Position numbers and translations under genes: made by a program. From assembly GCA_964030475.1 (NCBI GenBank), contig CAXIPT010000001.1, positions 20,598,586 to 20,662,585 on the forward strand: a stretch of DNA of 64,000 bases. Direction: 5' to 3'. This document shows, in pieces, positions 13,480-60,834 of this stretch; position 1 is the stretch's first letter; each line of letters starts with the position of its first letter. The notes beneath the pieces are model-generated. The model did not search any database. It worked only from the letters and a program-made list of their open reading frames with translations, and was not told where the DNA came from. This DNA is from Tethya wilhelma (lineage: Eukaryota > Porifera > Demospongiae > Tethyida > Tethyidae).

Positions 13480-15696
13480 TTAAAACACTTGCACTCTCCA
13501 ATTGCTATAATCACAAACATAAACAAAACCATCACAATCAACACAAATTCCAAAAGGGTTCTCAAATTCTCCTTCTTTGCTTCCTTTCTTACCAAATGAT
13601 GCAACAAACTGACCATCTCTACTAAACACGGAGAGACAACATCCACCCCACTCAACAACATACACAAACTGACCAGCTACACACACACCAGTTGGTTCAC
13701 TCAACTGACCATAGTCTTTCTCACTGAATGAAAGTTGAAACTTTCCCTGCTTGTTGAGGAGCTTGACACGATCATTGCCCCAGTCACAAATGTACATGCT
13801 ACCATGTTCATCTTGGGTAATGTCACAAGGTTGCCACTGTTCATCTCCTTCACCTTCTGAACCAATTGTTCTGACAAATTGTAGTTTGTCTTTTGTAAAT
13901 ACTTGCAGTCGATGGTTATTTTTATCACATACTAACACTTTATCTCCTACAACAGCCACACCTCTCGGATCACTAAATTCACCATGGCCACTACCTTCTG
14001 TGCCAACAGTCTTGAGAACTTTACCATCTTTGGTACATTTAAACAGACAATGTTGAGAATTATCAGTCACATACAAGTTATCATTTTCATCAACTGAAAT
14101 ACCTCTTTTATTACTTGGCATTTTGATGTGATGTAGTTTCTTTCCTTTCTTAAATACTGAAATTTCATCCCATTTTGTCACTAGTACTTCCTCATCTGAA
14201 TTGATTGTGACTCCATATGGATGGTCCAAACCACCTATGATCCTCACTGGCTTACCAAGCTGTGTTGGTGGTATATTCACATACACAGGAAAGGGACTGC
14301 CGGCTATTGGTTGGTCGTTTACTTTGACTGTTAGTTGATGACGACCACGAACGGCTGAGGAGAATTGGATTTTGTACTTGTTCTCTTCTTTTCGTACTCC
14401 CTTCAGTTGAGAGACAGACCCATTGACAAGGGACTTCAATTCAGCAGTCACTTTCTGTGGCTTCTTGGTAGGAGCACAATTGTGTAACATTGTGTGGACT
14501 ATGACGTGTGTCTGTTGGTTGACTTCAGTACTGTTCAAACCAGGACCATCCACTTTGCACTTTGATGGATCTACTGGAAGAGTGATGATTTTTGCTTTAG
14601 TTTTACACAACTTTTTGAGATGCTCTTTAATCTCTATTTCTGCTCCCATATCCACCTCTTCAACTGGTTCAAGATCAATGGCTCCTTTATGATGTTCTTC
14701 AGCTTTCTTGTCAATTTGACTCAACATCTGTTTATGTAACGTCATCAACTCTTCATCTGTGGAATTCTCGACATTTTGTTCCACAAAGTCCATCAGGCTC
14801 TGGATTACAGCAGAGGCCATGTTGAGGCCTTTCTCTTGAGTGGAAAGGTGTGTGACCTTCTTCTCCACTGTGTCAGATGCCTCCACTAGTAGCCTGTTCT
14901 TGTGCTGCTCTAGAATTTCTTGCCATTCTTGAAACGACTGTTCAATGTTCTCAGCTACAGATGCTCCTTGAGCCATGACTTCAGATTTTGTAACCTGAAC
15001 TACTTCTGCAGCTTTACAAAGATTAGCTTGGACCTCTTTCAGTGGAGCAAGATGTTCATTCAGTTTTTTCTTTATCTCTGGAGCAGTGACCTTCACAAAA
15101 TCATACTTGTGTTTGGCATGATCGATCACAATGCAGTCTCGACAGATAAGACAGTCACAGTCAAAGCAGAATATTTTCATCTGCTCATCATGTATCACAC
15201 ATTTTGGCGGTGGGGGCTTAGAGACTAGGATTTGCTTTGCTTCACCTTTTTTCAGCTCTTCAAGGGTCACAACCTTGTGGCTGGAGAAAGCTTTCATCTT
15301 CTGGTGCGATTTAACACAGTCAGCACATATGAACTCAGTACATTGGCGACAAAAGGCTACAGACACACCTCCACTGCACTGCTCACAGGGAGCCTCTACC
15401 TTTCCATGGACTTTCTCTCTCTTTCCTTGAAGTTCTTTCAATCGGTTGATGAAGAAGGCAGTCTTCAGTTGATTGGGGTCATTTTGAGGCACTGTGGTTT
15501 CTTGCCGGCATTCTGGACATTCAAAAGGACGGTTGGGTCCAGCATAATTCACCAGTTTCTGGATACACTTCTTACAGTAGTAGTGACAGCAAGGTAGTAT
15601 CTTGGGTTCTTCAAACACACCATGACAGACGGGACAGGTGAGTTCATCTTGGAGCTCTTTTAACCCTTTATCAACAACAGGAGGAGCTTCAGCCAT
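13480..15696 (-). CDS. TRIM protein: RING, two B-boxes, coiled coil, filamin, NHL (copy 1)
   Basis: One coding exon of 738 residues. The RING finger is C3HC4 with C21, C24, C36/37, H38, C41, C44, C60 and C63. B-box 1 spans about 104-140 and B-box 2 about 166-196, then a coiled coil to about 345. A filamin/ABP280 domain (about 372-475) carries the hallmark GSPFPVYV, and NHL repeats run from RIIGGLDHPYGV to the end VQVF. This is the TRIM2/3/71-type layout: a predicted ubiquitin E3 ligase with a beta-propeller that binds targets, protein or RNA. Just before the ATG is a splice acceptor at 15712, so the leader is spliced. It lies tail to tail with ORC1, 213 bp away, and the pair was duplicated as a unit. 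Exact targets cannot be read from the sequence. Confidence 0.95.
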   Translation of the reverse strand: MAEAPPVVDKGLKELQDELTCPVCHGVFEEPKILPCCHYYCKKCIQKLVNYAGPNRPFECPECRQETTVPQNDPNQLKTAFFINRLKELQGKREKVHGKVEAPCEQCSGGVSVAFCRQCTEFICADCVKSHQKMKAFSSHKVVTLEELKKGEAKQILVSKPPPPKCVIHDEQMKIFCFDCDCLICRDCIVIDHAKHKYDFVKVTAPEIKKKLNEHLAPLKEVQANLCKAAEVVQVTKSEVMAQGASVAENIEQSFQEWQEILEQHKNRLLVEASDTVEKKVTHLSTQEKGLNMASAVIQSLMDFVEQNVENSTDEELMTLHKQMLSQIDKKAEEHHKGAIDLEPVEEVDMGAEIEIKEHLKKLCKTKAKIITLPVDPSKCKVDGPGLNSTEVNQQTHVIVHTMLHNCAPTKKPQKVTAELKSLVNGSVSQLKGVRKEENKYKIQFSSAVRGRHQLTVKVNDQPIAGSPFPVYVNIPPTQLGKPVRIIGGLDHPYGVTINSDEEVLVTKWDEISVFKKGKKLHHIKMPSNKRGISVDENDNLYVTDNSQHCLFKCTKDGKVLKTVGTEGSGHGEFSDPRGVAVVGDKVLVCDKNNHRLQVFTKDKLQFVRTIGSEGEGDEQWQPCDITQDEHGSMYICDWGNDRVKLLNKQGKFQLSFSEKDYGQLSEPTGVCVAGQFVYVVEWGGCCLSVFSRDGQFVASFGKKGSKEGEFENPFGICVDCDGFVYVCDYSNWRVQVF

Positions 15697-16040
15697 TTCT
15701 ACTAATGTAACCTAAATTGAAATATAGATATATGTCTAGTCACTTTTAATAGAACCATAATTTAGTGAGTTCACACATGTTCAGTTCAAAATAGAACTTG
15801 AAACCTATCAGGAACACATATAAAGTAAAATACAACCTAGATCTACTTCCCTTTGTCTACTCAAAATTATGCCCAGAAAAGTGTATTATAAAGTTAAACT
15901 ATGACAGATTAAAACTTACCAAGAAGAAAAATGGACCGTTGAAAAAGAGGAAAACAGAAAGTCACAGCAAAAAATGCTACCAGCAGACACGCCCATTTTT
16001 TCTACGCATGCTCAGTGTCTATCAACCCAAGTCCATGATG
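15697..16040 (-). promoter_or_regulatory. Spliced 5' leader and promoter of TRIM copy 1
   Basis: On the minus strand a leader exon from about 16.0 kb ends at 15920 before GTAAGTTTT; the acceptor lies at 15712, 15 bp before the ATG. Upstream at about 16004-16014 is ACGCATGCTCA, part of a motif that recurs at the same relative place in the other TRIM-type genes. The leader and promoter are copied at 25551-25830. Confidence 0.6.
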
Positions 16041-17269: not shown

Positions 17270-19483
17270 TTAAAACACTTGCACTCTACCATTGCCATAA
17301 TCACAAACATAAACAAAACCATCACAATCAACACAAATTCCAAAAGGCCTACTAAATTCTCCTTCTTTGTTTCCTCTCTTACCAAATGATGTAACAAACT
17401 GACCATCTCTACTAAACACAGAGACAAAACATCCCAAGTACTCAACAACATACACAAACTGACTAGCTACACACACACCAATTGAGTACTTCAACTGATC
17501 ATTGTCTTTCTTGCTAAATGAAAGTTGAAACTCTCCCTGCTTGTTGAGGACCTTGACACGATTATTGCCAAAGTCACAAATGTACATGTTACCATGTTCA
17601 TCTTGGGCAATGTCATAAGGTGAATTAAACTGTTCATCTCCTTTACCTTTTGAACCAATTGTTCTGACAAATTCCAGGGTGTCTTTTGTAAACACTTGCA
17701 GTCGGTCGTTATCATTGTCACATACAAACACTTCATCTCCTATGACAGCCACACCACTTGGATCATTGAATTCACCATGGCTACTGCCTTTTGTGCCAAC
17801 AGTCTTGAGAACTTCACCATCTTTGGTACATTTCAATAGACAATGTTGATCCCTATTAGCTACATACATGTTATTATCTTCATCAATGGCTATACTGTTA
17901 AGATTTGGGATTTTGATCTCACGTAGTTTCTTTCCTTTCTTGAATGCAGAAATCTTATTACGTTCTGTCACAAGTACTTCCTCAGCTGAGTTGACCGTGA
18001 CTCCATATGGGTAGTTCAAACCACCTATGATCCTCACAGGCGTACCAAGCTGTGTTGGTGGTATATTCACATACAGAGGAAAGGGACTGCCGGTTATTGG
18101 TTGATCATTTACATTGATTGATAGTTTATGACGACCACGAACAGCTGAGGAGAATTGGATTTCGCATTTGTTCTCTTCTTTTCGTACTCCCTCCAGTTGA
18201 GAGACAGACCCATTGACAAGGGACTTCAATTCAGCAGTCACTTTCTGTAGCTTCTTGGTAGGAGCACCATTGTGTAATATTGTGTGGACTATGATGTGTG
18301 TCTGTTGGTTGACTTCAGCACTGTTCAAACCAGGACCATCCACTTTGCACTTTGATGGATCTACTAGCTGATACAATTCAGCATTAGTTTGACAAGTCTG
18401 GTGTATTTTCTCAGCACAGTTTATCTCTACTTTCAGATCAGCAATCTCAACTGGTTCAAGATCAATGGCTCCTTTACGCTGTTCTTCAGCTTCCTTGTCA
18501 ATTCGACTCAAGATTTGTTTATGTAACGTCATCAACTCTTCATCTGTAGAATTCTCAACATTTTGTTCCACAAAGTCCACCAGGCTCTGGATTACAGCTG
18601 AGGCCATGTTGAGGCTTTTCTCTTGAGTGGAAAGGTGTGTGACCTTCTTCTGCACTGTGTCAGATGCCTCCACTAGTAGTCTGTTCTTGTGCTGCTCTAG
18701 AATTCCAACCAATTCTTGAAACGACTGCTCAATGTTCTCAGCTACAGATACTCCTTGAGCCATGACTTCAGATTTTGTAACTTGAACTACTTCTGCAGCT
18801 TTACAAAGATTAGCTTGGACCTCTTTCAGTGGAGCAAGATGTTCATTGAGTTGTTTCTTTGTCTCTGGAGCAGTGACCTTCACAAAATCATACTTGTGTT
18901 TGGCATGATCGATCACAATGCAGTCTCGACAGATAAGACGGTCACAGTCAAAACAGAATAGCTTCATTTTTCCATCATGGATCGTACACTTTGGTGGTGG
19001 AGGTTTGGAGACTAGGATTTGCTTTGTTCCTCCTTGTTTCAGCTCTTCAAGGGTCACAACCTTGTGGCCAGTAAAGATTTTCATTCGTTGATGGGATTCA
19101 GAACATTTCTCACAAATGAACTCGGTACATTGGCGACAAAAGGCTACAGACACACCTCCACTGCACTGCTCACAGGGAGCCTCTACCTTTCCGTGAATTT
19201 TCTCTCTCTTTCCTTGAAGTTCTTTTAATCGGTTGATGAAGAAGGCAGTCTTCAGTTGATTGGGGTCATTTTGTGGCACTGTGGTTTCTTGCCGGCATTC
19301 TGGGCATTCAAAAGGACGGTTGGGTCCAGCATAATTCACCAGTTTCTGGATACACTTCTTACAGTAGTAGTGGCAGCAAGGTAGTATTTTGGGTTCTTCA
19401 AACACGCCATGACAGACAGGACAGGTGAGTTCATCTTGGAGCTCTTTCAACCCCTTATCAACAACGGGAGGAGTTTCAGCCAT
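17270..19483 (-). CDS. TRIM protein: RING, two B-boxes, coiled coil, filamin, NHL (copy 2)
   Basis: One coding exon of 737 residues, sister of the gene at 13480-15696. The first hundred residues differ at only a couple of positions, and all zinc ligands of the RING and both B-boxes are kept. B-box 1 is diverged (ICEKCSESHQRMKIFTGHK). The linker after the coiled coil (EIADLKVEINCAEKIHQ) is unlike copy 1 but like the TRIM-PARP gene at 45-47.6 kb. The filamin domain ends GSPFPLYV and the NHL propeller starts RIIGGLNYPYGVTV. The NHL part is clearly more diverged than the RING part. It is a predicted E3 ligase with altered target-binding surface. The leader is spliced: an acceptor lies about 13 bp before the ATG. 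Confidence 0.95.
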   Translation of the reverse strand: MAETPPVVDKGLKELQDELTCPVCHGVFEEPKILPCCHYYCKKCIQKLVNYAGPNRPFECPECRQETTVPQNDPNQLKTAFFINRLKELQGKREKIHGKVEAPCEQCSGGVSVAFCRQCTEFICEKCSESHQRMKIFTGHKVVTLEELKQGGTKQILVSKPPPPKCTIHDGKMKLFCFDCDRLICRDCIVIDHAKHKYDFVKVTAPETKKQLNEHLAPLKEVQANLCKAAEVVQVTKSEVMAQGVSVAENIEQSFQELVGILEQHKNRLLVEASDTVQKKVTHLSTQEKSLNMASAVIQSLVDFVEQNVENSTDEELMTLHKQILSRIDKEAEEQRKGAIDLEPVEIADLKVEINCAEKIHQTCQTNAELYQLVDPSKCKVDGPGLNSAEVNQQTHIIVHTILHNGAPTKKLQKVTAELKSLVNGSVSQLEGVRKEENKCEIQFSSAVRGRHKLSINVNDQPITGSPFPLYVNIPPTQLGTPVRIIGGLNYPYGVTVNSAEEVLVTERNKISAFKKGKKLREIKIPNLNSIAIDEDNNMYVANRDQHCLLKCTKDGEVLKTVGTKGSSHGEFNDPSGVAVIGDEVFVCDNDNDRLQVFTKDTLEFVRTIGSKGKGDEQFNSPYDIAQDEHGNMYICDFGNNRVKVLNKQGEFQLSFSKKDNDQLKYSIGVCVASQFVYVVEYLGCFVSVFSRDGQFVTSFGKRGNKEGEFSRPFGICVDCDGFVYVCDYGNGRVQVF

Positions 19484-19900
19484 TTCTGATACAATCTACA
19501 ATGAAAATTAACTGATTATAATGTAATACATCTATAGTCACATTCACTTAACACAAAGGACCCAACACATGCACAGTCTATAATGTAAAATTACAGTTTG
19601 TATTTGACAATGTTCAGCTCTATTTAGTAGCCAAAATCTCTCTCAACAGTTAGTCTCGCGGGCCAGCCTCTTTCAAGGAAAGGAGCTGGCCCGCGAAGAC
19701 TACTCAACAGTAGCTAGTCTATACCCAAAACATGGCATCTAACAATTTATGTGTTAGTTCACTCACCAGGAGAGAAATCTGAAATATATAGGGAACAGTC
19801 TATACGGCAGGAGCAAAGACAAGACAAGGTCACACAAGAAATGTTTTTAGTGACACACCCACTTTAGTGGTTATGCATCTGCGCATGCTCCAATTGAGCT
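19484..19900 (-). promoter_or_regulatory. Leader intron and promoter of TRIM copy 2
   Basis: The leader acceptor (TTTTCATTGTAG on the minus strand) is near 19497 and the donor GTGAGTGAA near 19766. The motif TGCGCATGCTCCA is at about 19880-19892. The leader exon (AGATTTCTCTCCTGGTGAG on the minus strand) is shared with the gene at 20001-21098. Confidence 0.55.
19651..19702. repeat. GC-rich hairpin
   Basis: GTCTCGCGGGCCAGCC is followed within 30 bp by GCTGGCCCGCGAAGACT, making a strong stem-loop of about 50 bp. It lies in the leader intron of TRIM copy 2. A half of similar sequence (tctagtctcgcgagg) occurs near 33650. It looks like a small foldback element. Confidence 0.6.
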
Positions 19901-20000: not shown

Positions 20001-21098
20001 CTAAAACACTGAAATCCTTCCCCTTCCATGCTCAGAAACATAAATGAATCCATCCTGATCAAGACAGATCCTCTTTGGCCACTGACAATCACCAAATGAA
20101 GAAACAAACTGGCTGTCTTTAGTAAACACAGACACACAAACCTTCTCAACAACGCACACAAACTGACCAGCTACACACACACCAGTTGGTTCTTCCAGCT
20201 GACCATTGCCTTTCTTGCTGAATGAAAACTGAAACTCTCCCTCCTTGTTGAGGACCTTGACTCGATTGTTGCCTTGGTCACAGACATACAGGTTTCCTAG
20301 CTCATTTTGAACAACGTCTGTAGGCTTAACAAAATAGTCATCTCCTTCACCATGACCACCGATTGCTTTAACAAACTCCAGGCCATCTTTCGTCAACACT
20401 TGCAGTCGGTGGTTATCTTTGTCACAAATGATTATATTGTCTCCAGCAAGACCCACACCGGTCGGTTCGTTGAACTCACAAGGCCCACTGCCCCGTTTTC
20501 CCCCAACACTCTTGAGCAATTCTCCCGCCTTGTTGTATTTCAGGACCCTATGCCAGACACGATCGACAACGTACATGTTGTCCTCTTCATCAATGGCTAT
20601 CCCACAGAGATGGCTCTCATCATTCTTGATCTTGATGTCGTGCAACTTCTTTTTCGTCTTCTTGTCACACCAAGTGATGGCTCTGTATTCAGTCACCACC
20701 ACTTCATTGGCAGAGTTGATGGCTACTCCATATGGGTAGAATAGATCACCTATGATAATCACTGGACTGCCGATCTTCTTGAATGGCATCTTTGCAAACA
20801 CAGGAAAGGGACTGCCGGCTATTGGTTGATCGTTTACACTTATTGCTAGTTCGTAGCGACCACGTACACGAGGGAAGACCTTGATTTTATACTTGTTTCC
20901 TTCAATTTGCTTTCCTTCCAGTTGAAATGTGGTCCCTTCTACGAATGACTTCCATTCAGCTGTCACTTTCAGTGGTTTTTCAGTAGGAGCACCATTGGGC
21001 AATACTGTGGTGACTATGACAGGTTTCTCCTCCCTGAATTCAGCCTCAGTCATACCAGGACCTTCCACTGTACACTTGGATGGATCTACCTCAGCCAT
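20001..21098 (-). CDS. RING-less filamin-NHL protein (copy 3)
   Basis: One coding exon of 365 residues starting MAEVDPSKCTVEGPGM. The first about 100 residues are a filamin domain ending GSPFPVFA, followed by NHL repeats with motifs such as GVAINSANEVVVTE and NNRVKVLNKEGEF to the end GRISVF. There is no RING, B-box or coiled coil, so it is not an E3 ligase by itself. It could bind the same kind of targets as the TRIM genes without ubiquitinating them. This is a real start, not a broken gene: a splice acceptor stands 18 bp before the ATG and the leader matches the TRIM leaders. The propeller differs from copy 4 at many sites. Confidence 0.9.
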   Translation of the reverse strand: MAEVDPSKCTVEGPGMTEAEFREEKPVIVTTVLPNGAPTEKPLKVTAEWKSFVEGTTFQLEGKQIEGNKYKIKVFPRVRGRYELAISVNDQPIAGSPFPVFAKMPFKKIGSPVIIIGDLFYPYGVAINSANEVVVTEYRAITWCDKKTKKKLHDIKIKNDESHLCGIAIDEEDNMYVVDRVWHRVLKYNKAGELLKSVGGKRGSGPCEFNEPTGVGLAGDNIIICDKDNHRLQVLTKDGLEFVKAIGGHGEGDDYFVKPTDVVQNELGNLYVCDQGNNRVKVLNKEGEFQFSFSKKGNGQLEEPTGVCVAGQFVCVVEKVCVSVFTKDSQFVSSFGDCQWPKRICLDQDGFIYVSEHGRGRISVF

Positions 21099-21681
21099 TT
21101 TTCTTTAGTCTTGTTGCTAATGAAAGAGAATAACATGTATTATAAATTTATGAGACACAGTCTGAAGTATCTTTCAGTTTACTAAGAGAAAAAATACGGC
21201 TCAAACACAACAGGAGAGGTAGTGATAATTTTAAAGGCGGGAAGTAGATCTATCTAGCTCAGTTGTGTTCTCTTTTATACGCTCAGCAGGACAGCTCTAT
21301 GCATGAGTGAGTTTATACGAGCTACCAAAATCAGCAAAATGGTATCTTATCAAGCTATGTGTTAATTCACTCACCATGAGAGAAATCTGAAGGATAGCAA
21401 ATGGTCAAAACAAACCAGCACACAGCTGAGCAGGAGCAGAGGCAAGGTCACGCCGAAGAATGCTCTAGGACGGTAATCAACGTTGACACACCCACTTTTA
21501 ATTTAATGGCTTTGTTTTGTTTTTTTTGCGCTTGCTCCAATGAATACAATATCAGACACTGGGTTTACAAAATATGACAAAATTAATGCCAATGTCAAAA
21601 TTAATAAAAGTGCATAACAAGGTAGCATCTTTTAACAAGAAATAATATGTTTTTAAGTACCCTATCAGACCTATATAACTT

Positions 21682-22785
21682 CTAAAATATTGCAATCCTA
21701 TTATTTCCATGCTCACAGACATAAATGAAACCATCTTGATCAACACAGATCCCACGTGGCCAATTGAAATTATCAAATGAAGAAACAAACTTGCCATCTT
21801 TAGTAAAAATAGACACCTTAGCCTTCTCCGTAATGTACACAAACTGACCAGCTATACATATACCATTCGGTTCTTTCAACTGACCATTGCCTCTCTTGCT
21901 GAATGAAAACTGAAGCTCTCCCTCTTTATTGAGGACCTTGACTCGATTGTTGCCATAGTCACAGACGTACAGGTTTCCTAGCTCATCTTGAGCAATGCTA
22001 TTAGGTTTAATGAAATCTTCATCTCCTTCACCACGTGAACCGATTGCTTTAACAAACTCCAACCCATCTTTCGTCAACACTTGAAGTCGGTGGTTATCTT
22101 TGTCACAAACGATAATATTGTCTCCAGCAAAACCCACACCGGTCGGTTCGTTGAACTCGCAAGGCCCACTGCCCCGTTTTTCCCCAACGCTTTTCAGCAA
22201 TTCTCCCGCCTTGTTATATTTAAGGACCCTCTGCCAGACACGATCCACCACGTACGTGTTTTCCTCTTCATCAATGGCTAGCCCACAGAGATGACTCTCA
22301 TCGTTTGTTATCTTAATGTTGTACAACTTCTTGTGTGTTTCCTTGTTGTACCAAGTGATCGCTCTGAATTCCGTCACCACCACTTGATTGGCCGAGTTGA
22401 TGGCTACTCCGTACGGATAGAATAGATCGCCTATGATCTTCTCAGGACTCCCAAGTCTCCCGAATACCATTTTTACAAACAGAGGAAAGGGACTGCCAGC
22501 TATTGGTTGATCATTTACATTGATGGTTAGTTCATGGTGACCACGAACACGAGGGAAGAGTTCAAACTTGTATTTGTTTCCTTCAATATGCTCTCCCTCC
22601 AGTTGAGATGTGGTCCCTTCGACGAGTGACTTCAATTCAGCTGTCACTTTCAGTGGTTTTTCAGTAGGAGCACCATTGGGTAGCACTGTACTGACTATGA
22701 CAGATGTCTCCTTCTTGAATTCAGCCCCAGTCATACCAGGACCATCCACTGTACACTTGGATGGATCCACAAGTACCTCAGCCAT
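21682..22785 (-). CDS. RING-less filamin-NHL protein (copy 4)
   Basis: One coding exon of about 367 residues from MAEVLVDPSKCTVDGPG. The frame is open about 20 codons further upstream, but a splice acceptor (CATTTCAG) lies inside that extension, so the MAEV start is preferred, as in copy 3. The filamin domain ends GSPFPLFV and the NHL repeats end NNRIAIF. It is the nearest relative of copy 3, in tandem and on the same strand. On the minus strand, the leader exon ends GGAAAGTAGAGC-like sequence near 22873 before a GTAAGCTGG donor. The promoter motif TTGCGCATGCTCAG lies near 22999-23011. Function as in copy 3 is inferred. Confidence 0.9.
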   Translation of the reverse strand: MAEVLVDPSKCTVDGPGMTGAEFKKETSVIVSTVLPNGAPTEKPLKVTAELKSLVEGTTSQLEGEHIEGNKYKFELFPRVRGHHELTINVNDQPIAGSPFPLFVKMVFGRLGSPEKIIGDLFYPYGVAINSANQVVVTEFRAITWYNKETHKKLYNIKITNDESHLCGLAIDEEENTYVVDRVWQRVLKYNKAGELLKSVGEKRGSGPCEFNEPTGVGFAGDNIIVCDKDNHRLQVLTKDGLEFVKAIGSRGEGDEDFIKPNSIAQDELGNLYVCDYGNNRVKVLNKEGELQFSFSKRGNGQLKEPNGICIAGQFVYITEKAKVSIFTKDGKFVSSFDNFNWPRGICVDQDGFIYVCEHGNNRIAIF

Positions 22786-22998
22786 TTTTCTTTCTTTTGC
22801 CAATCTAGTCTTTTGTAGCTGAAATGAAAGATTTGAACTTAACAATTATGTAATACTAGTGTCTCCAGCTTACCAAGAGGAAAGTAGAGCTCAAACACAG
22901 CAGGAGAGATAGTAATAAAGGCGGGATTCCAGGGAAACTGTAGCTGTGTATGCTGAGCTAGAGCAGACACACCCACTACAAGAGCAGCACGTGATCAT

Positions 22999-24272: not shown

Positions 24273-25265
24273 TCAAAACACTTGTACTCTATGGTTCCAG
24301 TGATCACAAACATAAATGAACCCATCAAGATCAGCACACGCTCCAAAGGAATACTTCAGTTCTCCTTCTTTGTCTCCAAAGCTCCCAAAGGAAGAGACAA
24401 ACTGACCATCTCTAGTAAACACAGACACACAAAAGCTTGAATACTCTACGACATACACAAACCGACCAGACACACACACACCAGTCGGCCCATTCAAATG
24501 ACCGTTGTCTTTCTGACCGAACGAACGCTGAAACTTTCCCTGCTTGTTATAAACCTTGACATGATTATTACCAATATCTGTAATGTACATGTTGCCTAGT
24601 TTGTCGTGGGCAATGCTCTCGACCATCTGAAAGTGTTCATCTCCTTCACCACTTGAACCGATCGTCTTCACATACTCCAGTGTCTCTTTTGCATACACTT
24701 GTACTCGATTGCCAAGCTTATCGCACACGTAGACGCAATCTCCTATCACAGCCAGACCCGACATTTCACTGAATTCATAATCACCCTTTCCGTACTTCCC
24801 AATGCTCTTGATCACTTCGCCATCGACGTTTAGTTTGAAGAAACAGAATCGCACGCCATCAGTCACGTAAATGTTACCATCCTCGTCAGTTGCAATGCCA
24901 CCATAGCTTGTGGAGATTTTGTCAGTTGGGATCTTGATTTCACGCAGTTTGTTTCCTTTGGTGTCAAACACAGAAATCTTCTTTTGATCTGTCACTAGGA
25001 CTTCCTCGGCTGAGTTGATTGTGACTCCTGCTGGTCCCTTTAAACCGGTTAAAATTCTCACGGGCTTACCGAGCTGTGTTGGTGGTATATTCATGTACAC
25101 AGGAAAGGGACTGCCGGCTATTGGTTGATCATTTACATTGATTGATAGTTTATGGCGACCACGAACGGCTGAGGAGAATTGGATTTCGTACTTGTTTTCT
25201 TCTTTTGGAACTCCCTCCAGTTGAGAGACAGACCCATCGACAAGGGATTTCAATTCAGCAGTCAC
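24273..25265 (-). CDS. Filamin-NHL gene lacking its 5' end (copy 5)
   Basis: An open frame of 330 residues starting inside the filamin domain (TAELKSLVDGSVSQLEGV), with hallmark GSPFPVYM, then a full set of NHL repeats ending NHRVQVF. Similarity runs upstream of the first ATG to about 25300 (NDKPLKVTAEL), so the frame has lost its true start. The missing first part of such a gene, starting MAGVSPPSSG, is found on the same strand at 26942-27060. The block between (25551-26940) is foreign and is bounded by single N bases. The two parts may be one intact gene split by misassembly, or a real 5'-truncated copy. Confidence 0.75.
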   Translation of the reverse strand: MTAELKSLVDGSVSQLEGVPKEENKYEIQFSSAVRGRHKLSINVNDQPIAGSPFPVYMNIPPTQLGKPVRILTGLKGPAGVTINSAEEVLVTDQKKISVFDTKGNKLREIKIPTDKISTSYGGIATDEDGNIYVTDGVRFCFFKLNVDGEVIKSIGKYGKGDYEFSEMSGLAVIGDCVYVCDKLGNRVQVYAKETLEYVKTIGSSGEGDEHFQMVESIAHDKLGNMYITDIGNNHVKVYNKQGKFQRSFGQKDNGHLNGPTGVCVSGRFVYVVEYSSFCVSVFTRDGQFVSSFGSFGDKEGELKYSFGACADLDGFIYVCDHWNHRVQVF

Positions 25266-25550
25266 TTTCAGTGGTTTATCATTTCTATCTATGTGGACTG
25301 CGCTCGTGCTATTAGGCCATAAGAGTGTCAGCTAGAGTGCTATTTGCCAAGCGCATTAGTGCGAGGCATCATAAATCGGTTTGTAGTTGGGTTGGCATTA
25401 TTATAATTACTGTTTGCTTCCAATTACAAGTTATTATGACTGGTTTTACGCTCATTATCTCAGTTTTCCCCAAGAAAGAGAAAGCTCATGATCTTGGGAT
25501 TGAAGCAATGGCACAAGGAATCAACGAAAAGATCGTATATACTCTTCATN

Positions 25551-42841: not shown

Positions 42842-43594
42842 ATTAAACGATGGTAGCATTTAATTTTAATTAATTCAATTAGTTTAATCAAGCATATCAC
42901 TGGAAAGCACAATTCATGTACTTTCAGAATATTTTAGTCCTGCATGCATTTCAAAACTGAAGCGTATTTGAGTTACAATAGATCAAATCAGCAGATTGGT
43001 CAAAAATATGCAAAAATTTGAATTTTTTGGACACTTGTAACAGAGAAACCATATAAGTTTGTGGGCTGTAATTCTATCTCAGTAAATCAATTAAGGTAAC
43101 GTACCTGTTCACCAAGTTTCGCCAAAATCCATGAGGGTCATGCAATTTGTGTGTTGATTTGACATGGAATGACCCAATTTTATTCTCTTGCTTGTCTTTA
43201 TTATCAATGCCAACTTGATTGCGATCCTCCGGATGTGCCATACAATGTAGTTACTTTCTGCAGTAACACTGTAACTGATAACTCGATCTAGTAGTACTGC
43301 TGACTGCTATGATCCACCACTTTTGAGTTGAATTTGAATACAAGGTTTGGAGGGGGGGCNTTGGATGGGGGGGCAAAATAGGGGGGTCCAAATTCTCCGT
43401 GACAGGTCACATAGTATATAGACACTGACACATAATTTGCACATTAATTGCACACTGATGAAAATAATGTGGACTATCATTGAAAATTAATATTAGATCC
43501 ATGCACCATGTTCCTCTGCATGTAATGAACTTACTTTCAAAGTGTGCAAAGCCTGGACAACACAGACGAAGTAAACAAAGCTCAGAGGTGACAC
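42842..43594. other. Intergenic stretch
   Basis: No exon is recognised. A G-rich stretch with an N lies at 43350-43386. Confidence 0.4.
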
Positions 43595-43897
43595 AAGGGG
43601 TGGTCACAACCATACCTGCCATAGGACCGTTTGCGACCGCGGTCAAAGTGTCGGTCAACAGGTCAAGGCCCAAAAATGTGATTGGTCAAAGGGTGAAGAC
43701 GATAGTCACTGGGCTAATTTAGAGGTGTGGCATTACGAAATTGGGGACCGCCCATTTTATTGTAGTCAAGTCAAGGAGTCAAGAAGGTTTTTAGCCTATA
43801 TGGTCAAGAGGTCATGGCCAATTTTGGGTGGTCAAGATTCTTGACCGCGGTCGCAAACAGTCCTATGGCAGGTATATGGTTGTGACCACCCCTTGTG
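43595..43897. mobile_element. 303-bp TIR element with 7-bp target duplication
   Basis: The termini AAGGGGTGGTCACAACCATA and TATGGTTGTGACCACCCCTT are inverted. The similarity continues about 50 bp inward (cctgccataggaccgtttgc against gcaaacagtcctatggcagg). GTGACAC flanks it on both sides (43588-43594 and 43898-43904). It is rich in GGTCAA words. One terminus of a related copy starts near 44042. Confidence 0.85.
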
Positions 43898-43904
43898 ACA
43901 CATG

Positions 43905-43995
43905 TACAGCCTGTATGAGATACACCCACTATCAAAACTATCATGTGACATTCTTTTAATTGGAGAATAAAATCCAAGTGCATCATCTATTTTTA
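43905..43995. promoter_or_regulatory. Relic of the FARSA/TRIM-PARP promoter
   Basis: ACACCCACTATCAAAAC and TTTTAATTGGAGAATAAA, followed by CCAAGTGCATCATC, parallel ACGCCCACTATAAAAAC and GTTTAATTGGAGAGTAAATT at 47757-47850, in the same order and spacing. No coding part follows in either direction. Confidence 0.55.
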
Positions 43996-44041
43996 ATTTC
44001 TTCAGTGTCTTGGACTGGTGCTTGACTAGCCTCTTACCCAG

Positions 44042-44200
44042 CAAGGGGTGGTCACGACCATACCTGCTGTACTAACACCCACGACCGGGATCAAGATGCG
44101 ATCAAGGGGTCAAAGCAACAAAAATTGGCCCCATCAAGGGTCAAGAAAGTTTTACTGCTCACTTTCGATCCGCAACGGTCACTGAAAGGTCATTAGCTGC
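44042..44200. mobile_element. One end of a second AAGGGGTGGTCAC element
   Basis: AAGGGGTGGTCACGACCATA repeats the terminus at 43595, followed by diverged GGTCAA-rich sequence. I cannot find its opposite end. Confidence 0.55.
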
Positions 44201-44214
44201 AAACGGCAATTAAG

Positions 44215-44479
44215 GACTGTTGCCATGGCAACCAAAAATTTATGACATACTTATGGCATCAAAATATTAATTTTTAGCGGAGGAATTTTTAATAACTCGT
44301 TGCCATAGTGAGTTACGGAGCACTTTCCATTTAAGGCACGCTAAAATTATGCGTAAAATTTGGTAAAAAAATGGCAATATCTCTCCATAGCAACGACATA
44401 TAAAGAAATCCTCCACTTAAAATCAAGTTTATGATCTTCAGGTTTTGTCACAAAAATTTAGTTACCATGGCAACAGTGC
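44215..44479. mobile_element. 265-bp foldback element, TIR CACTGTTGCCATGG
   Basis: GACTGTTGCCATGGCAAC at the left and GTTACCATGGCAACAGTG at the right are inverted. The interior is inverted too (gcggaggaatttttaataac against tataaagaaatcctccac). There is no coding content. From 44480 to 44962 I see no gene. Confidence 0.75.
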
Positions 44480-44962
44480 TACTATAGCGTTTAATTAGAT
44501 GTTTTGTTAATTAATAGGTAAATTTGAAAGTTGGTTAAAACCTTTAATATTCATGTTGTGGTTTCACAACTTTATCAAAATGTTAAGTAAGGGCTATACT
44601 TTACATTAATTTATTAACATTCACCATACAATAATGTGTGGTTGAAAAATAAGATACATAACATTGTGAAATTTTAATGAGTTTCACTGGTGACCCGGGC
44701 CTTAATGGCGCGGAGGATGCATGGGAGGAGTTTGGAACATGAATTATAAGTTCAGCTTATAGTATCTGTGCAACTCAATAAATCGACTACAAAATTAATG
44801 ACTCGTGCACTATAATTGGATTGAAGCATATAAATTATATGACACTGTGTGTATAAATTTTTGTGTGAGCAAAGTAGGGAAATCAAGCCCTACGTATATA
44901 ATACAACAATGTCCAATAATCATACACAATAATTGTAGGCCTAGCTTGGCAACATAACTCCA

Positions 44963-47575
44963 CTATGTTAAAGTAACTAAATATTCAGGGTAAGCACTAG
45001 CATCATGAAAAACCACATATATAAGTGGATTTATTACGTTGTCAACAACAGAATCATACTTTGTATTAGGGTACTTGGGATTCTCTGGAGTATCTATCAT
45101 AGTGGAATTGGCAACAGTATATTCTCCCGTAAGTACTCGTGCCAGATAGATGTACTTCATTCCATTAGTATCACGGGGTGAGTACAGGTCTCGAGCTGCA
45201 TAGCTGGCGTCTCTTGCAAAATAAACCCCAGCACCAAATGCACTAGCTATAATTATAAAATTAAAAAAAGAGACAGAAAAATATAATATAATTATAGTAG
45301 GGTAGTTGACTAGAGTACAAATAATAATTGTAGTACTGGTTATATAGTGCTTACAATGTAATTATAGCTATATACCTCTTCTTCCAGAAGAGCTCCGATT
45401 GAAGCCATGGTTGTTGATATTTTGGTATTTTGTATTTGATGGTCCATGAAACAACATTTTTTCTGAATACATGGCAGTACCAACTGTGTATCTCTTGTCA
45501 ATTTGGGATTTTTTTGCAGCATACTGTAAATACAATCCTGGATTTTGAACTCTCTGTATCCTAACGATCATAACAGAGTCTGTTGATGATGTGTAACCTG
45601 TACCTGTAGGGTTTCCTTTTGTTGGAGTTTGCTGCTCAGTGATTATCAAAGTCTTTGAAAGCATGTGTACAACATAGGAATATTCGCTACTGCCTGGGTT
45701 AAGATCCACAACATGTAAGCAAGCTTCTTTGCCAGTGGAAAGATCCACAGGCATTTTATCCCAGGTTTTTGGAAATTGATCTGAATAAATTGAATACTAT
45801 TTCCATAAAGTTACATAAACCCCCAAAAAGTATATATGTGTTAATACTTTTATGTTTATCTAATGTGGATGGAAACAGTTTGCTAATAATTATAATGTTT
45901 AAGTTTTTTTTCTGTGTTGGTTTAACATTGAACCACAAAAATTAATAATAATATAACAGAAAAGTGCATGTAATATCAAATTGACAATATTATTGATCTT
46001 ACCTATATATAGATTCCTCTCTTTCTGGTCAAACACAGAAATCTTGTTACGTTCAGTCACTAGTACTTCCTCAGCTGAGTTGACTGTGACTCCATATGGT
46101 TTATCTAAACCCCCTATGATCCTCACAGGCTTACCAAGCTGTGTTGGTGGTATATTCACGTACACAGGAAAGGGACTGCTGGCTATTGGTTGATCGTTTA
46201 CAAAAACTGATAGTTGATGACGACCACGAATGGCTGAGGAGAATTGGATTTCATACTTGTTCTTTTCTTTTCGTACTCCCTCCAGTTGAGAGACAGACCC
46301 ATTGACAAGGGACTTCAATTCAGCAGTCACTTTCTGTGGCTTCTTGGTAGGAGCACCATTGTGTAACATTGTGTGGACTATGACGTGTGTCTGTTGGTTG
46401 ACTTCAGCACTGTCCAAACCAGGACCATCCACTTTGCACTTTGATGGATCTGGTAGGTGATATAATTCAGCATTAGTTTGACAAGCCTGGTGTATTTTCT
46501 TAGCACAGTTTATCACTGCTTTCAGATCAGCAATCTCAACTGGTTCAAGATCAATGGCTCCTTTACAATGTTCTTCAGCCTCCTTGTTGATTCGACTCAA
46601 TATCTGTTTATGTAACGTCATCAACTCTTCATCAGTGGAATTCTCCAAATTTTGCTCCACAAAGTCCACCAGGCTCTGGATTACAGCAGAGGCCATGTTG
46701 AGGCCTTTCTCTTGAGTGGAAAGATGTGTGACCTTCTTCTCCACTGTGTCAGATGCCTCCACTAGTAGCCTGTTCTTGTGCTGCTCTAGAATTCCAACCA
46801 ATTCTTGAAATGACTGTTCAATGTTCTCAGCTACAGATGCTCCTTGAGCCATGACTTCAGATTTTGTAACTTGAACTACTTCTGCAGCTTTACAAAGATT
46901 AGCTTGGACCTCTTTCAGTGGAGCAAGATGTTCATTGAGTTGTTTCTTTGTCTCTGGAGCAGTGACCTTCACAAAATCATACTTGTGTTTGGCATGATCG
47001 ATCACAATGCAGTCTCGACAGATAAGACAGTCACAGTCAAAACAGAATATCTTCATCTGCTCATCATGGATCGTACACTTTGGTGGTGGAGGCTTGGAGA
47101 CTAGTATTTGCTTGGCTCCTCCTTTTTTCAGCTCTTCGAGGGTCACAACCTTGTGGCTAGAGAAAGCTTTCATCTTCTGGTGTGATCTAACACAGTCAGC
47201 ACAAATGAACTCAGTACATTGGCGACAAAAGGCTACAGACACACCTCCACTGCACTGCTCACAGGGAGCCTCTACCTTTCCATGTGCCTTTTCCATCTTT
47301 CCTTCAACTTCTTTCAATCGGTTGATGAAAAAGGCAGTTGTCAGTTGATTGGGGTCATTATTAGGCACCGTTGTTGGCAGTCTACATTCTGGGCATTCAA
47401 AAGGACGGTTTGCACGTCTAGCGAAATCAATGAGACCTTGGATACAGTTCTTACAGTAGTAGTGACAGCAAGGGAGGATTTTGGGCTCTTCAAACACGTC
47501 ATGACAAACAGGACAGGTGACTTCTTTTTTCAAATCCTTCAACCCTTTATTAGTAACAGGAGGAGCTTCAGCCAT
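44963..47575 (-). CDS. TRIM-filamin-PARP fusion (RING E3 with ADP-ribosyltransferase domain)
   Basis: Three exons join in phase: 46003-47575, 45376-45780 and 44963-45246; 753 residues. Exon 1 encodes RING, two B-boxes, coiled coil, filamin (GLDSAEVNQQTHVIVH) and one NHL blade (RIIGGLDKPYGVTV), close to TRIM copies 1 and 2. It ends at G|GTAAGATC in phase 1. Exons 2-3 encode a complete PARP catalytic domain of the PARP10/14/15 type: QFPKTWDKM start, IVRIQRVQNPGLYLQY, MLFHGPSN with His about 636, FGAGVYFARDASYAARDLYS with Tyr about 668, KYIYLARVLTGEY, YDSVVDNVINPLIYVVFHD and YPEYLVTL just before the stop. The third triad position is hydrophobic (Val about 750 by my alignment), not Glu, so mono-ADP-ribosylation is predicted. 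It is divergent from FARSA. Splicing is inferred from consensus sites and phase only. Confidence 0.88.
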
Positions 47576-47848
47576 GACAACAAACCAGGATCAGGTTAAA
47601 CTGCAAAAAGGTAGATACATGAAACATGAAGATGTGCACACTAACAATAAATATTAGATCTATGCATCGTATTCTTTGCATGAAAAAACTTACAAGAATT
47701 CAAATTAGTCTACAAAAGCTTGAACAAAACTGGAAAACATCAACTTGAGAGCAGATACGCCCACTATAAAAACAAATTACCTAATCAGGTGATATCCCTA
47801 TTCGTTTAATTGGAGAGTAAATTCCACGTGGACCATCATCATAATATT
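47576..47848. promoter_or_regulatory. Divergent promoter of TRIM-PARP and FARSA
   Basis: Only 273 bp separate the two start codons. On the minus strand a leader exon ends near 47692 at GTAAGTTTT, and the acceptor CTTTTTGCAG lies about 25 bp before the TRIM-PARP ATG. So the shared promoter core is limited to about 47700-47848. It holds ACGCCCACTATAAAAAC and TTTAATTGGAGAG, both repeated in the relic at 43.9 kb. Confidence 0.6.
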
Positions 47849-58716: not shown

Positions 58717-60453
58717 CTAATCCTCTCCTTCGTCGCTACCTACTTTCTCCGGCTCCTCTGAGCTCTGCTTCTCAGAGCTGTCTCCCTTCTTGTCTTCGTC
58801 TGAACTGTCTTCCTTCTTCTTGTCTTCATCTGAACTGTCTTCCTTCTTCTTGTCTTCGTCTGAACTGCTACTGGAAGAAGAGCTGGAGCTGCTAGAAGTG
58901 GAACTCTTCCGACTTCGTTCCCAAATCTCTTCCACGTCTTTTTTGGTAGAATCTACAATTTCATCGTCATGTTTGTTCTCCTCTTGTTCGACTACTTTAA
59001 TAGCTGCAGCTACGATGGCCGATTCTTCTGCCGTGAGTTCTTCGGCTGGTGGTGGTGATGGTGATGGTTGCTTCTCCTCTTCCTTGGGTTGCTCTTCTTC
59101 TTCTCCTGGTGCTGAAGGTTCATCGGTTTCTTGCGGTTCAGATTCAACAACTGGTTCATCAACTTGTTCAACAACTTCTTGTACGATGTCATCCGAAGGT
59201 TTTGTGTCACTTTCTTCTACTTTTTCCTCTTCTTTTTCCGTATCTTGGTGTTCTTCAGTCTCTTCTGCATCGTCAGTTTCCTTTGCTAGACCACCATCAT
59301 CTTCTTCACCCTCTTTTGGTGAACTCCCCTCTTCTTGCTCTGATACGACAGGAGCTGGTGGTTCTGTTTGAACGACAGATGTGTCTTCGACTTTGACTTC
59401 TTCTTGTGAAACTTCCGCCTCTTCTTGCACATCTTGTTCTTTTTCTTGTGTCTTCTCTTCAGTAACTGGTTCGACTGCTTCCGCTTCTTCAGGTTGGGGT
59501 TCCTCAACCACTATTGGTTCTGGTTCTGGCTCTTTGTGCTCTTCAGGCTCTGGAACAGCAGGTTCCTCCTCAACTTGCTTTACTGGTGGTTCTACGACTG
59601 GCTCACTGACTGGTTCAACCTCTTCAACAGCCTGTTCAACAACCTCGGTATCGGCAGGCTTTTCTTCTGGTGGGTGTGATTCCTCTGATTCTTTTGGTTC
59701 TTCTGGTTGCTGCTGTTCACCATCGTGATCATCTCCTCCTTCTTGCGGTGTAGGCTCAGGCTCAACTATCGCAGGTACGACATCTTTTGTCTTTGATTCT
59801 TCTTCAGTTTTTTCTGCCGGTGCGGCTTCTGGCTCTTCGGGTCTTGGTGATGAATGTTTGACGTCCGTTTCTGCTAATCTGAGTGCTTGATCGAGTTCTG
59901 CAGTCGCTGCAGTTACTTCTAAATCGGTGGCACTTTCAGATGCTGGTCCATCAGTAGTATCTTCAGTGGTTTTAGCTGCTGGTTCTTCTTGATCGGAGGT
60001 TTTTGTTTCTGTATTATCATCCTCCTTTGTTGAAACATCTTCTTGCTTGGACTCTGTAGGAGGAGGTTGGGATTGGGATGTCTCCTCCACTGTTTTGCTT
60101 TCTACAGCTGTTCCTGGCGACTCTGCATTCACCTCTTTGGCTTCTGTTTCACTAGTTTCGGCTTTCGGTTCATCTTTGCTGTCCGAAGGTTGTTCCGATT
60201 TTGTTGCGTCTGCTTCAGTTACCGCTGTATCGTCTCTAGCAGGAGAATCTGATACGTTTCCATTCACGTTTGTTGACAGTTCTACAGTTACAGTTGCTTC
60301 ACCGACAGCATTTTCTTCAGATTTTTTAGCAGCAGCAGCAGCAGCATCGTCTGCTCGCGGCTCTGCCTCCGTTTCAGCGGCTGCATTCTCGGCGGGCTTC
60401 TTTTTCGGTGTGTCGGGGCTTTCACCGCTGATACAGTGGCAAACATTACCCAT
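58717..60453 (-). CDS. Acidic disordered protein with predicted N-terminal lipid anchor
   Basis: A single open frame. I choose the start at MGNVCHCISGESPD (578 residues); the frame is open 9 codons further upstream (MFFFFVGAR). Gly2 followed by NVCHC is a good N-myristoylation site with Cys5 and Cys7 for palmitoylation. The rest is almost wholly Glu, Ser, Pro, Ala, Thr, Val and Lys, with no hydrophobic core, so it should be disordered and very acidic. Near the C-terminus a 10-residue unit DSSDEDKKKE is repeated three times after a run of Ser. The layout recalls MARCKS/BASP1/GAP43-type membrane-attached acidic proteins, but I see no effector domain and claim no orthology. Low complexity gives spurious frames on the other strand. 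Confidence 0.8.
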   Translation of the reverse strand: MGNVCHCISGESPDTPKKKPAENAAAETEAEPRADDAAAAAAKKSEENAVGEATVTVELSTNVNGNVSDSPARDDTAVTEADATKSEQPSDSKDEPKAETSETEAKEVNAESPGTAVESKTVEETSQSQPPPTESKQEDVSTKEDDNTETKTSDQEEPAAKTTEDTTDGPASESATDLEVTAATAELDQALRLAETDVKHSSPRPEEPEAAPAEKTEEESKTKDVVPAIVEPEPTPQEGGDDHDGEQQQPEEPKESEESHPPEEKPADTEVVEQAVEEVEPVSEPVVEPPVKQVEEEPAVPEPEEHKEPEPEPIVVEEPQPEEAEAVEPVTEEKTQEKEQDVQEEAEVSQEEVKVEDTSVVQTEPPAPVVSEQEEGSSPKEGEEDDGGLAKETDDAEETEEHQDTEKEEEKVEESDTKPSDDIVQEVVEQVDEPVVESEPQETDEPSAPGEEEEQPKEEEKQPSPSPPPAEELTAEESAIVAAAIKVVEQEENKHDDEIVDSTKKDVEEIWERSRKSSTSSSSSSSSSSSSDEDKKKEDSSDEDKKKEDSSDEDKKGDSSEKQSSEEPEKVGSDEGED

Positions 60454-60834
60454 TCTCGCGCCAACAAAAAAGAAAAACAATATATCTCTTTGATACGTAT
60501 TTAAGCTTCAAGATCAGTATGAATGCACTGTCACAACTTGCGCATTCCAGCGACTTTGGGTGTGGTATTCAACCGCGTACAATTTCAGTTGCGCGCGTAC
60601 TTTTCATCGAGCAAGTCCACCCGTACCCACGCGCGAAAATTATAATTATTGCCTTGTTACGTAATTACAACAAAGAATGTTAATTATTATTTTTGATAAC
60701 AAAAAATCAATGATTATTGTGGTGTGGGGATTGAATAAATGAAGTGATTAATCAAAAGACAGGTAAGTGATTAAGTGAACAAAGTAGGTAGTAGATTGAC
60801 TGTACAAGAAGTATTATAATTTTTTATTTGGGGG
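60454..60834. other. Promoter side of the acidic gene and intergenic stretch
   Basis: Short CG-containing words (gcgcgcgtac, cacgcgcgaaaatt) cluster at 60540-60640, probably the promoter of the acidic gene. No gene is seen. Confidence 0.4.

Follow-up and report, generated by a model that had tools for sequence, protein, structure and literature searches.

Organization of the Locus

The window, a stretch of 64,000 nucleotides of Tethya wilhelma DNA (C1:20598586-20662585), was analyzed together with searches of the 124.6-Mb assembly to which it belongs. A TRIM-PARP gene candidate made up of three exons lies on its minus strand (Table 1). Joining the exons gave a coding sequence of 2262 nt that specifies 753 amino acids followed by a stop codon, with no internal stops. 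Both introns are of the GT-AG type and in phase 1, and the phase agreement across the three exons is exact. The three-exon anatomy put forward in a first-pass annotation was thus borne out with respect to exon borders and intron phase.

Table 1. Features of the TRIM-PARP locus (positions in the window)
Feature	Position	Strand	Evidence
Exon 1, TRIM head (RING, B-box 1, B-box 2, putative coiled-coil region, filamin, NHL stump)	46003..47575	-	75-87% identity to seven intact paralogues
Exon 1 ends	ATG at 47575; donor (G, then GTAAGATC) after 46003	-	
RING finger, residues 21-64	47384..47515	-	Pfam zf-C3HC4 and zf-RING_UBOX above cutoff
B-box 1, residues 105-143	47147..47263	-	Pfam ANCHR-like_BBOX above cutoff; zf-B_box in two stretches
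B-box 2, residues 164-200	46976..47086	-	Pfam zf-B_box
Filamin repeat, residues 375-469	46169..46453	-	Pfam Filamin 53.2 bits
NHL blade 1 stump	46003..46150	-	Alignment with paralogues; Pfam makes no call
Intron 1, GTAAGATC...TTTATTCAG, 222 bp, phase 1	45781..46002	-	
Exon 2, N-terminal ART part; catalytic His codon 45448-45446	45376..45780	-	
Intron 2, GTATATAG...TTATAG, 129 bp, phase 1	45247..45375	-	Same place in five PARP paralogues
Exon 3, C-terminal ART part (Tyr and Ile of H-Y-I) and stop codon	44963..45246	-	
Gap, 273 bp, to divergent plus-strand gene with PheRS_DBD1 domain (FARSA-like)	47576..47848	.	

The PheRS_DBD1 domain of the divergent neighbor was called by Pfam. The gap between the two genes may act as a shared promoter, and an active promoter region is plausible for the TRIM-PARP gene because its 5' end lies so close to this neighbor. 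Two dispersed repeats (44201-44721 and 44041-44203), present in dozens of genomic copies of 73-96% identity, follow ~240 bp past the PARP stop codon. A minus-strand frame of 596 aa at 58720-60507, of low complexity and with much Ser, Asp, Glu, and Lys, had no Pfam match at 0.001.

Domain Content of the Predicted Protein

Analysis of the spliced protein with Pfam identified a RING finger (zf-RING_UBOX, 29.4 bits, cutoff 25.2; zf-C3HC4, 27.7 bits, cutoff 21), two stretches of zf-B_box (48.6 bits, cutoff 24.1), a filamin repeat (53.2 bits, cutoff 26.9), and a PARP domain (78.3 bits, cutoff 26.7). Residues 206-370, a putative coiled-coil region after the B-boxes, align with the TRIM paralogues of the array described below, whose mutual identity is 0.84 there. 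The ADP-ribosyltransferase (ART) domain matched the human PARP14 and PARP15 chains (solved domains) at ~1e-41 over residues 57-229 of 229 aa. These matches confirmed the PARP10/14/15-like domain previously assigned to exons 2 and 3.

Pfam returned no NHL match for the spliced protein, whereas the intact paralogues in the window scored 75-82 bits. The earlier view that most of the NHL propeller has been lost holds. Of the content ascribed to the TRIM exon, RING, two B-boxes, and filamin were recovered by Pfam; the single NHL blade described earlier amounts to a stump, recognizable by paralogue alignment only. Neither Macro nor WWE was called by Pfam in the spliced protein, and the Pfam families listed, with E values of at most 0.01, included no DTC domain beside the RING. 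Thus, the predicted protein has the RING, B-boxes, and filamin of a TRIM protein without a C-terminal NHL propeller, and the PARP10/14/15-type ART and H-Y-hydrophobic triad of a clade-3 PARP14-like protein without macro or WWE domains.

The TRIM Half Belongs to a Tandem Array

A genome search with the exon 1 protein, in which 82 of 222 candidates were scored, revealed seven further near-full-length paralogues. They match from residue 1 to at least residue 518 of 524, and all seven reside on the same contig as the TRIM-PARP gene, two of them inside the window (13483-15711 and 17273-19495). Each is a single open frame of 729-778 aa that runs on through the NHL region, which was called by Pfam in both in-window paralogues and recognized by eye in the other five. 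We take this TRIM-filamin-NHL layout to be TRIM45/TRIM2/3-like. None of the seven contains an intron at the break point of the TRIM-PARP gene, and DNA similarity to them stops 4-33 nt before the exon 1 donor. For five array paralogues, segments between the RING and the beginning of the propeller had mean identities of 0.81-0.88. The value dropped to 0.50 for NHL blade 1 and was 0.75 for the remainder. Judged by these values, the TRIM-PARP joint is located where the array varies most, in NHL blade 1. The hypervariability of this blade among L052-L056 looks as if it arose by diversifying selection or frequent recombination.

When exon 1 was divided into 150-nt bins, the best match (91-99% identity) shifted from one paralogue to another. 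This mosaic points to gene conversion that takes in the fusion gene. The dS value to the nearest TRIM paralogue was 0.17. Private changes in exon 1 numbered seven nonsynonymous and five synonymous, compared with 7/5, 9/7, 15/12, 6/7, and 12/15 in five intact paralogues; the TRIM exon shows no excess of private nonsynonymous changes.

The array also contains broken members with stops (e.g. C1:20803809-20804663). Three minus-strand frames in the window (20004-21104, 21685-22845, and 24276-25331) are headless, i.e. filamin-NHL frames that lack RING and B-boxes; the first of the three was examined with Pfam, which called Filamin and NHL. In the 657-aa frame of L069 (C1:20585253-20589020), filamin-NHL follows a different N terminus that is charged and coiled-coil-like, suggesting that head swapping may occur in the array besides tail swapping.

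The PARP Half and Its Relatives

The PARP half has its nearest relatives on C4, with five loci at 6.02-6.09 Mb, and on C3, with a single locus at 6.30 Mb. Identity in exon 3 was 64-68% for the C4 loci and 54% for the C3 locus, and the corresponding values for exon 2 were 41-44 and 37%. The ART of these relatives occupies the last two exons, with intron places and phase as in the window gene. A phase-1 intron was present at the place of intron 2 in all five PARP loci examined. The acceptor just before the PARP exon matched in the loci examined, and a phase-1 donor was readable in three of them (L043, L038, and L044). A macro-type stretch was seen upstream in three of four C4 loci and in the C3 locus, whereas none was seen within ~1.5 kb of L040. 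Macro was called by Pfam in L043 and L044, the two loci tested, and visual inspection placed it in L042 and L038 as well. WWE was not called by Pfam in L043 or L044, where a WWE-like stretch was apparent by eye only. From this shared layout, exons 2 and 3 of the window gene correspond to the two final exons of a gene of the macro-PARP14-like kind. As both introns match introns of such genes on C4 and C3, they were supplied by the PARP side.

A search for a recent donor gene was unsuccessful, the relatives on C4 being the closest found. The best exon 3 match in the protein database, P0132, was 67% identical to the window gene and 79-82% identical to the C4 genes. Its greater proximity to the latter suggests that the window PARP belongs to a lineage that is old or evolves fast and has no known close relative. 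Two C4 stretches in opposite orientation (6024599-6025346 and 6054049-6054796) gave identical match scores and residues, a pattern that a recent segmental duplication in inverted orientation, or a collapsed repeat, might leave.

One Gene or Two

Among the 60 PARP and 150 B-box matches listed, the window locus alone has both within 25 kb, and the next closest B-box/PARP pair among them is located on C7 at a distance of ~27 kb. The co-occurrence of TRIM and PARP in the window is, on sequence grounds, more than chance because both homologies are strong, intron positions and phase are shared with PARP paralogues, and the adjacency is the sole one among the matches listed. A 246-bp stretch around the joint and intron 1 matched the genome once. 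Intron 1 was also sought elsewhere to trace its source, and no second copy was found.

The possibility raised in the first-pass annotation that exon 1 might instead splice to NHL exons was pursued downstream. DNA matches of ten TRIM loci to 43000-46002 comprised no NHL continuation for exon 1 and consisted of repeat-like matches only (~43458-43981). Among minus-strand frames of 250 aa or more, the next of NHL type is the one at 24276-25331, ~20 kb away. The hexamers AATAAA and ATTAAA are absent from intron 1 and occur within 150 nt of the stop in five of seven intact paralogues. This argument carries little weight, since 222 nt of A+T-rich sequence often contain no hexamer by chance. Under neutral drift of 0.085-0.17 substitutions/site, 10% to 2% of simulations, which modeled substitutions only, left the ART frame without a stop; the clock of this test (dS 0.17) is blurred by gene conversion among the paralogues. 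With regard to the splice donor, four of the seven paralogues (L053, L056, L057, and L058) read GTGAGATCAAAAT where the window reads GTAAGATCAATAAT, given a 6-nt shift made by eye; the MAFFT alignment does not contain the shift that pairs the two. Our guess is that the donor may have come from TRIM coding sequence. The indirect arguments for one gene, namely phase, intron 1, poly(A) signals, absence of NHL, exon 1 changes, and an open ART, are each modest.

The locus could also consist of two neighbors, a truncated TRIM gene and a solo PARP gene or dead PARP fragment with its own start. In line with this reading, the exon 1 frame reads on into intron 1 to a stop just above 45899, the genome has several other frames of ~200-260 aa that match PARP, broken members with stops occur in the TRIM array, and the ART is altered at conserved positions. 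However, only 222 bp separate the exons, their phases agree exactly, and the ART frame is undecayed. Furthermore, the first Met of the PARP frame comes after the conserved Trp of the domain, so that a solo protein would start within the homologous region. We regard two neighbors as unlikely. Far less probable still is an assembly chimera that brought in the PARP exons from elsewhere. Sequence exchange among tandem paralogues favors misassembly, but the joint lies in the 246-bp stretch that matches the genome once, within a contig of 27.4 Mb, and the matches listed include no second copy of the window PARP, the next being 68% identical in exon 3. A real spliced fusion of the three exons, as predicted here, is what we consider probable.

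Catalytic Residues of the ART Domain

The window ART has the triad H-Y-I at the aligned places. This is the motif of PARP6, -7, -8, -10, -11, and -12 (PMC9189837). Comparison with 21 relatives revealed several exchanges nearby. The residue after His-Gly is Pro (Thr in 20 of 21 relatives), the nicotinamide Ser is replaced by Ala (Ser in 19 of 21), an otherwise invariant Gly (21 of 21) is also Ala, and the D-loop aromatic residue is Ser (judged by eye, 19 of 21 have Tyr or Phe). Four further changes are milder. The nicotinamide site is named as Gly, Ala, Ser, and Tyr in the excerpt of PMC8002165; the window ART keeps three of these four residues, the fourth being the Ser to Ala exchange. Catalysis is doubtful because of Pro after His-Gly, the two exchanges to Ala, and Ser in the D-loop. 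These exchanges are compatible with possibly weak or altered ART activity, and a pseudo-ART is a serious alternative.

In the latter case, the fusion would be real and spliced, and its ART, catalytically dead or nearly so, would have a binding or regulatory role like that of the inactive PARP9 and PARP13. The changes at the Thr after His-Gly, the nicotinamide Ser, the D-loop aromatic residue, and the Gly speak for this reading. On the other hand, H-Y-I is intact, whereas PARP9 (Q-Y-T) and PARP13 (Y-Y-V) lack the His according to the excerpt of PMC9189837, and Ala replaces the same Ser in PARP16, listed as a mono-ART in the excerpt of PMC8002165. The reading also overlaps with our preferred explanation, whose first claim is the fusion itself. 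A dead ART appears somewhat unlikely to us; that both the E3 and the ART are active is conceivable, and we propose it tentatively.

Proposed Origin and Function

The first-pass annotation had envisaged that exon shuffling brought the PARP exons into a phase-1 intron of the TRIM gene. Such an insertion into a pre-existing TRIM intron was ruled out, as all seven intact paralogues are intronless there, and the phase-1 intron is that of the PARP family. Because the seven paralogues read through in one exon, recombination at the variable NHL joint is indicated rather than intron insertion. With moderate confidence, we propose a chimeric gene in which a TRIM head from the tandem array and a PARP tail together would specify the 753-aa fusion. 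The head of one TRIM-filamin-NHL array member would have been joined, inside hypervariable NHL blade 1, to a PARP gene of the macro-PARP14-like kind, which would have contributed its penultimate intron and last two exons. A single transcript from the TRIM promoter would then be spliced to encode a RING/B-box/coiled-coil/filamin/ART protein. Such a protein would be a self-assembling TRIM E3 whose recognition propeller is replaced by a mono-ADP-ribosyltransferase module. The module may target substrates, itself, or ubiquitin, and immunity is a plausible setting.

A more far-reaching proposal is that of a dual-signal enzyme, the TRIM scaffold self-assembling, ubiquitinating a target, and in cis ADP-ribosylating the same target or the ubiquitin just attached, with the propeller swapped for a PARP effector at the hypervariable joint. 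This appears improbable to us in its entirety. If it were true, one chain would perform a task for which vertebrates use a PARP and an E3 as separate partners. Should the spliced product exist, a catalytic ART would join the known C-terminal modules of TRIM proteins, a compact natural system would be at hand for combining ubiquitin and ADP-ribose marks on one target, and a TRIM array with shared head and variable tail would prove able to acquire a new effector by recombination.

Comparison with Other Proteins and Known Systems

No TRIM-PARP fusion was recognized in the open-access literature searched, in line with the first-pass annotation, to which no described TRIM with a C-terminal PARP domain was known. 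Nor was the combination of RING, zf-B_box, Filamin, and PARP, for which it had proposed a search, recognized among the protein-database matches listed. One search for the fusion or an orthologue gave nine proteins, none with a RING or B-box match listed by Pfam. Another scored the 7999 candidates sharing most words and produced 1937 matches, and no PARP domain was present among the 120 listed. An orthologue was not seen among 107 matches of the exon 3 protein search, all of which were short pieces. Proteins of sequenced kin appear to have been called exon by exon, so that a fusion could be missed. A 512-aa TRIM protein without NHL, P0035, was rejected as evidence for a fusion because it ends differently. 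The 787-aa protein P0008 has CCCH-like fingers and a RING/IBR-like cysteine-rich region (IBR_1 23.1 bits, below the cutoff of 27), followed by a C-terminal PARP. It resembles the window gene in having PARP after a RING/IBR-like region, lacks B-box and filamin, and is possibly a second kind of E3-PARP fusion.

Within the genome, the array paralogues are like the window gene in RING, B-boxes, putative coiled-coil region, and filamin (75-87%), whereas they continue in the same exon into an NHL propeller and the window gene has a stump plus ART instead. The macro-PARP14-like genes on C4 and C3 share with it the ART exon layout and the places and phase of introns, but have a macro domain upstream (save L040, with none seen within ~1.5 kb) where the window gene has a TRIM head. 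The C-terminal modules of TRIM proteins enumerated in the excerpt of PMC7578260 are COS, FN3, PRY/SPRY, PHD, bromodomain, filamin, NHL, MATH, ARF, and TM, a list from which PARP is absent. Animal macro/PARP and TRIM domains are each fused to TRADD-N, not to each other, in the fusions covered by the excerpt of PMC8195603.

The excerpt of PMC4245714 describes clade-3 PARPs of Dictyostelium with an N-terminal U-box, as well as UBCc domains carried by homologues of PARP6/8 in fungi, a moss, and a green alga. In the Dictyostelium proteins, an E3-type domain is joined to a clade-3 PARP within a single chain, as it would be in the product of the window gene. The Dictyostelium proteins have a U-box in place of RING, B-boxes, and filamin, and an independent origin is likely. 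The combination of E3 and ART in one chain is thus known in principle, and its TRIM version is so far one gene in one genome. In PARP9-DTX3L, a RING E3 is likewise coupled with a PARP-family ART. That system, as presented in the excerpt of PMC13224862, is composed of two proteins, DTX3L with a DTC domain and PARP9 with an inactive ART, whereas the window gene would encode one predicted chain, with no DTC match.
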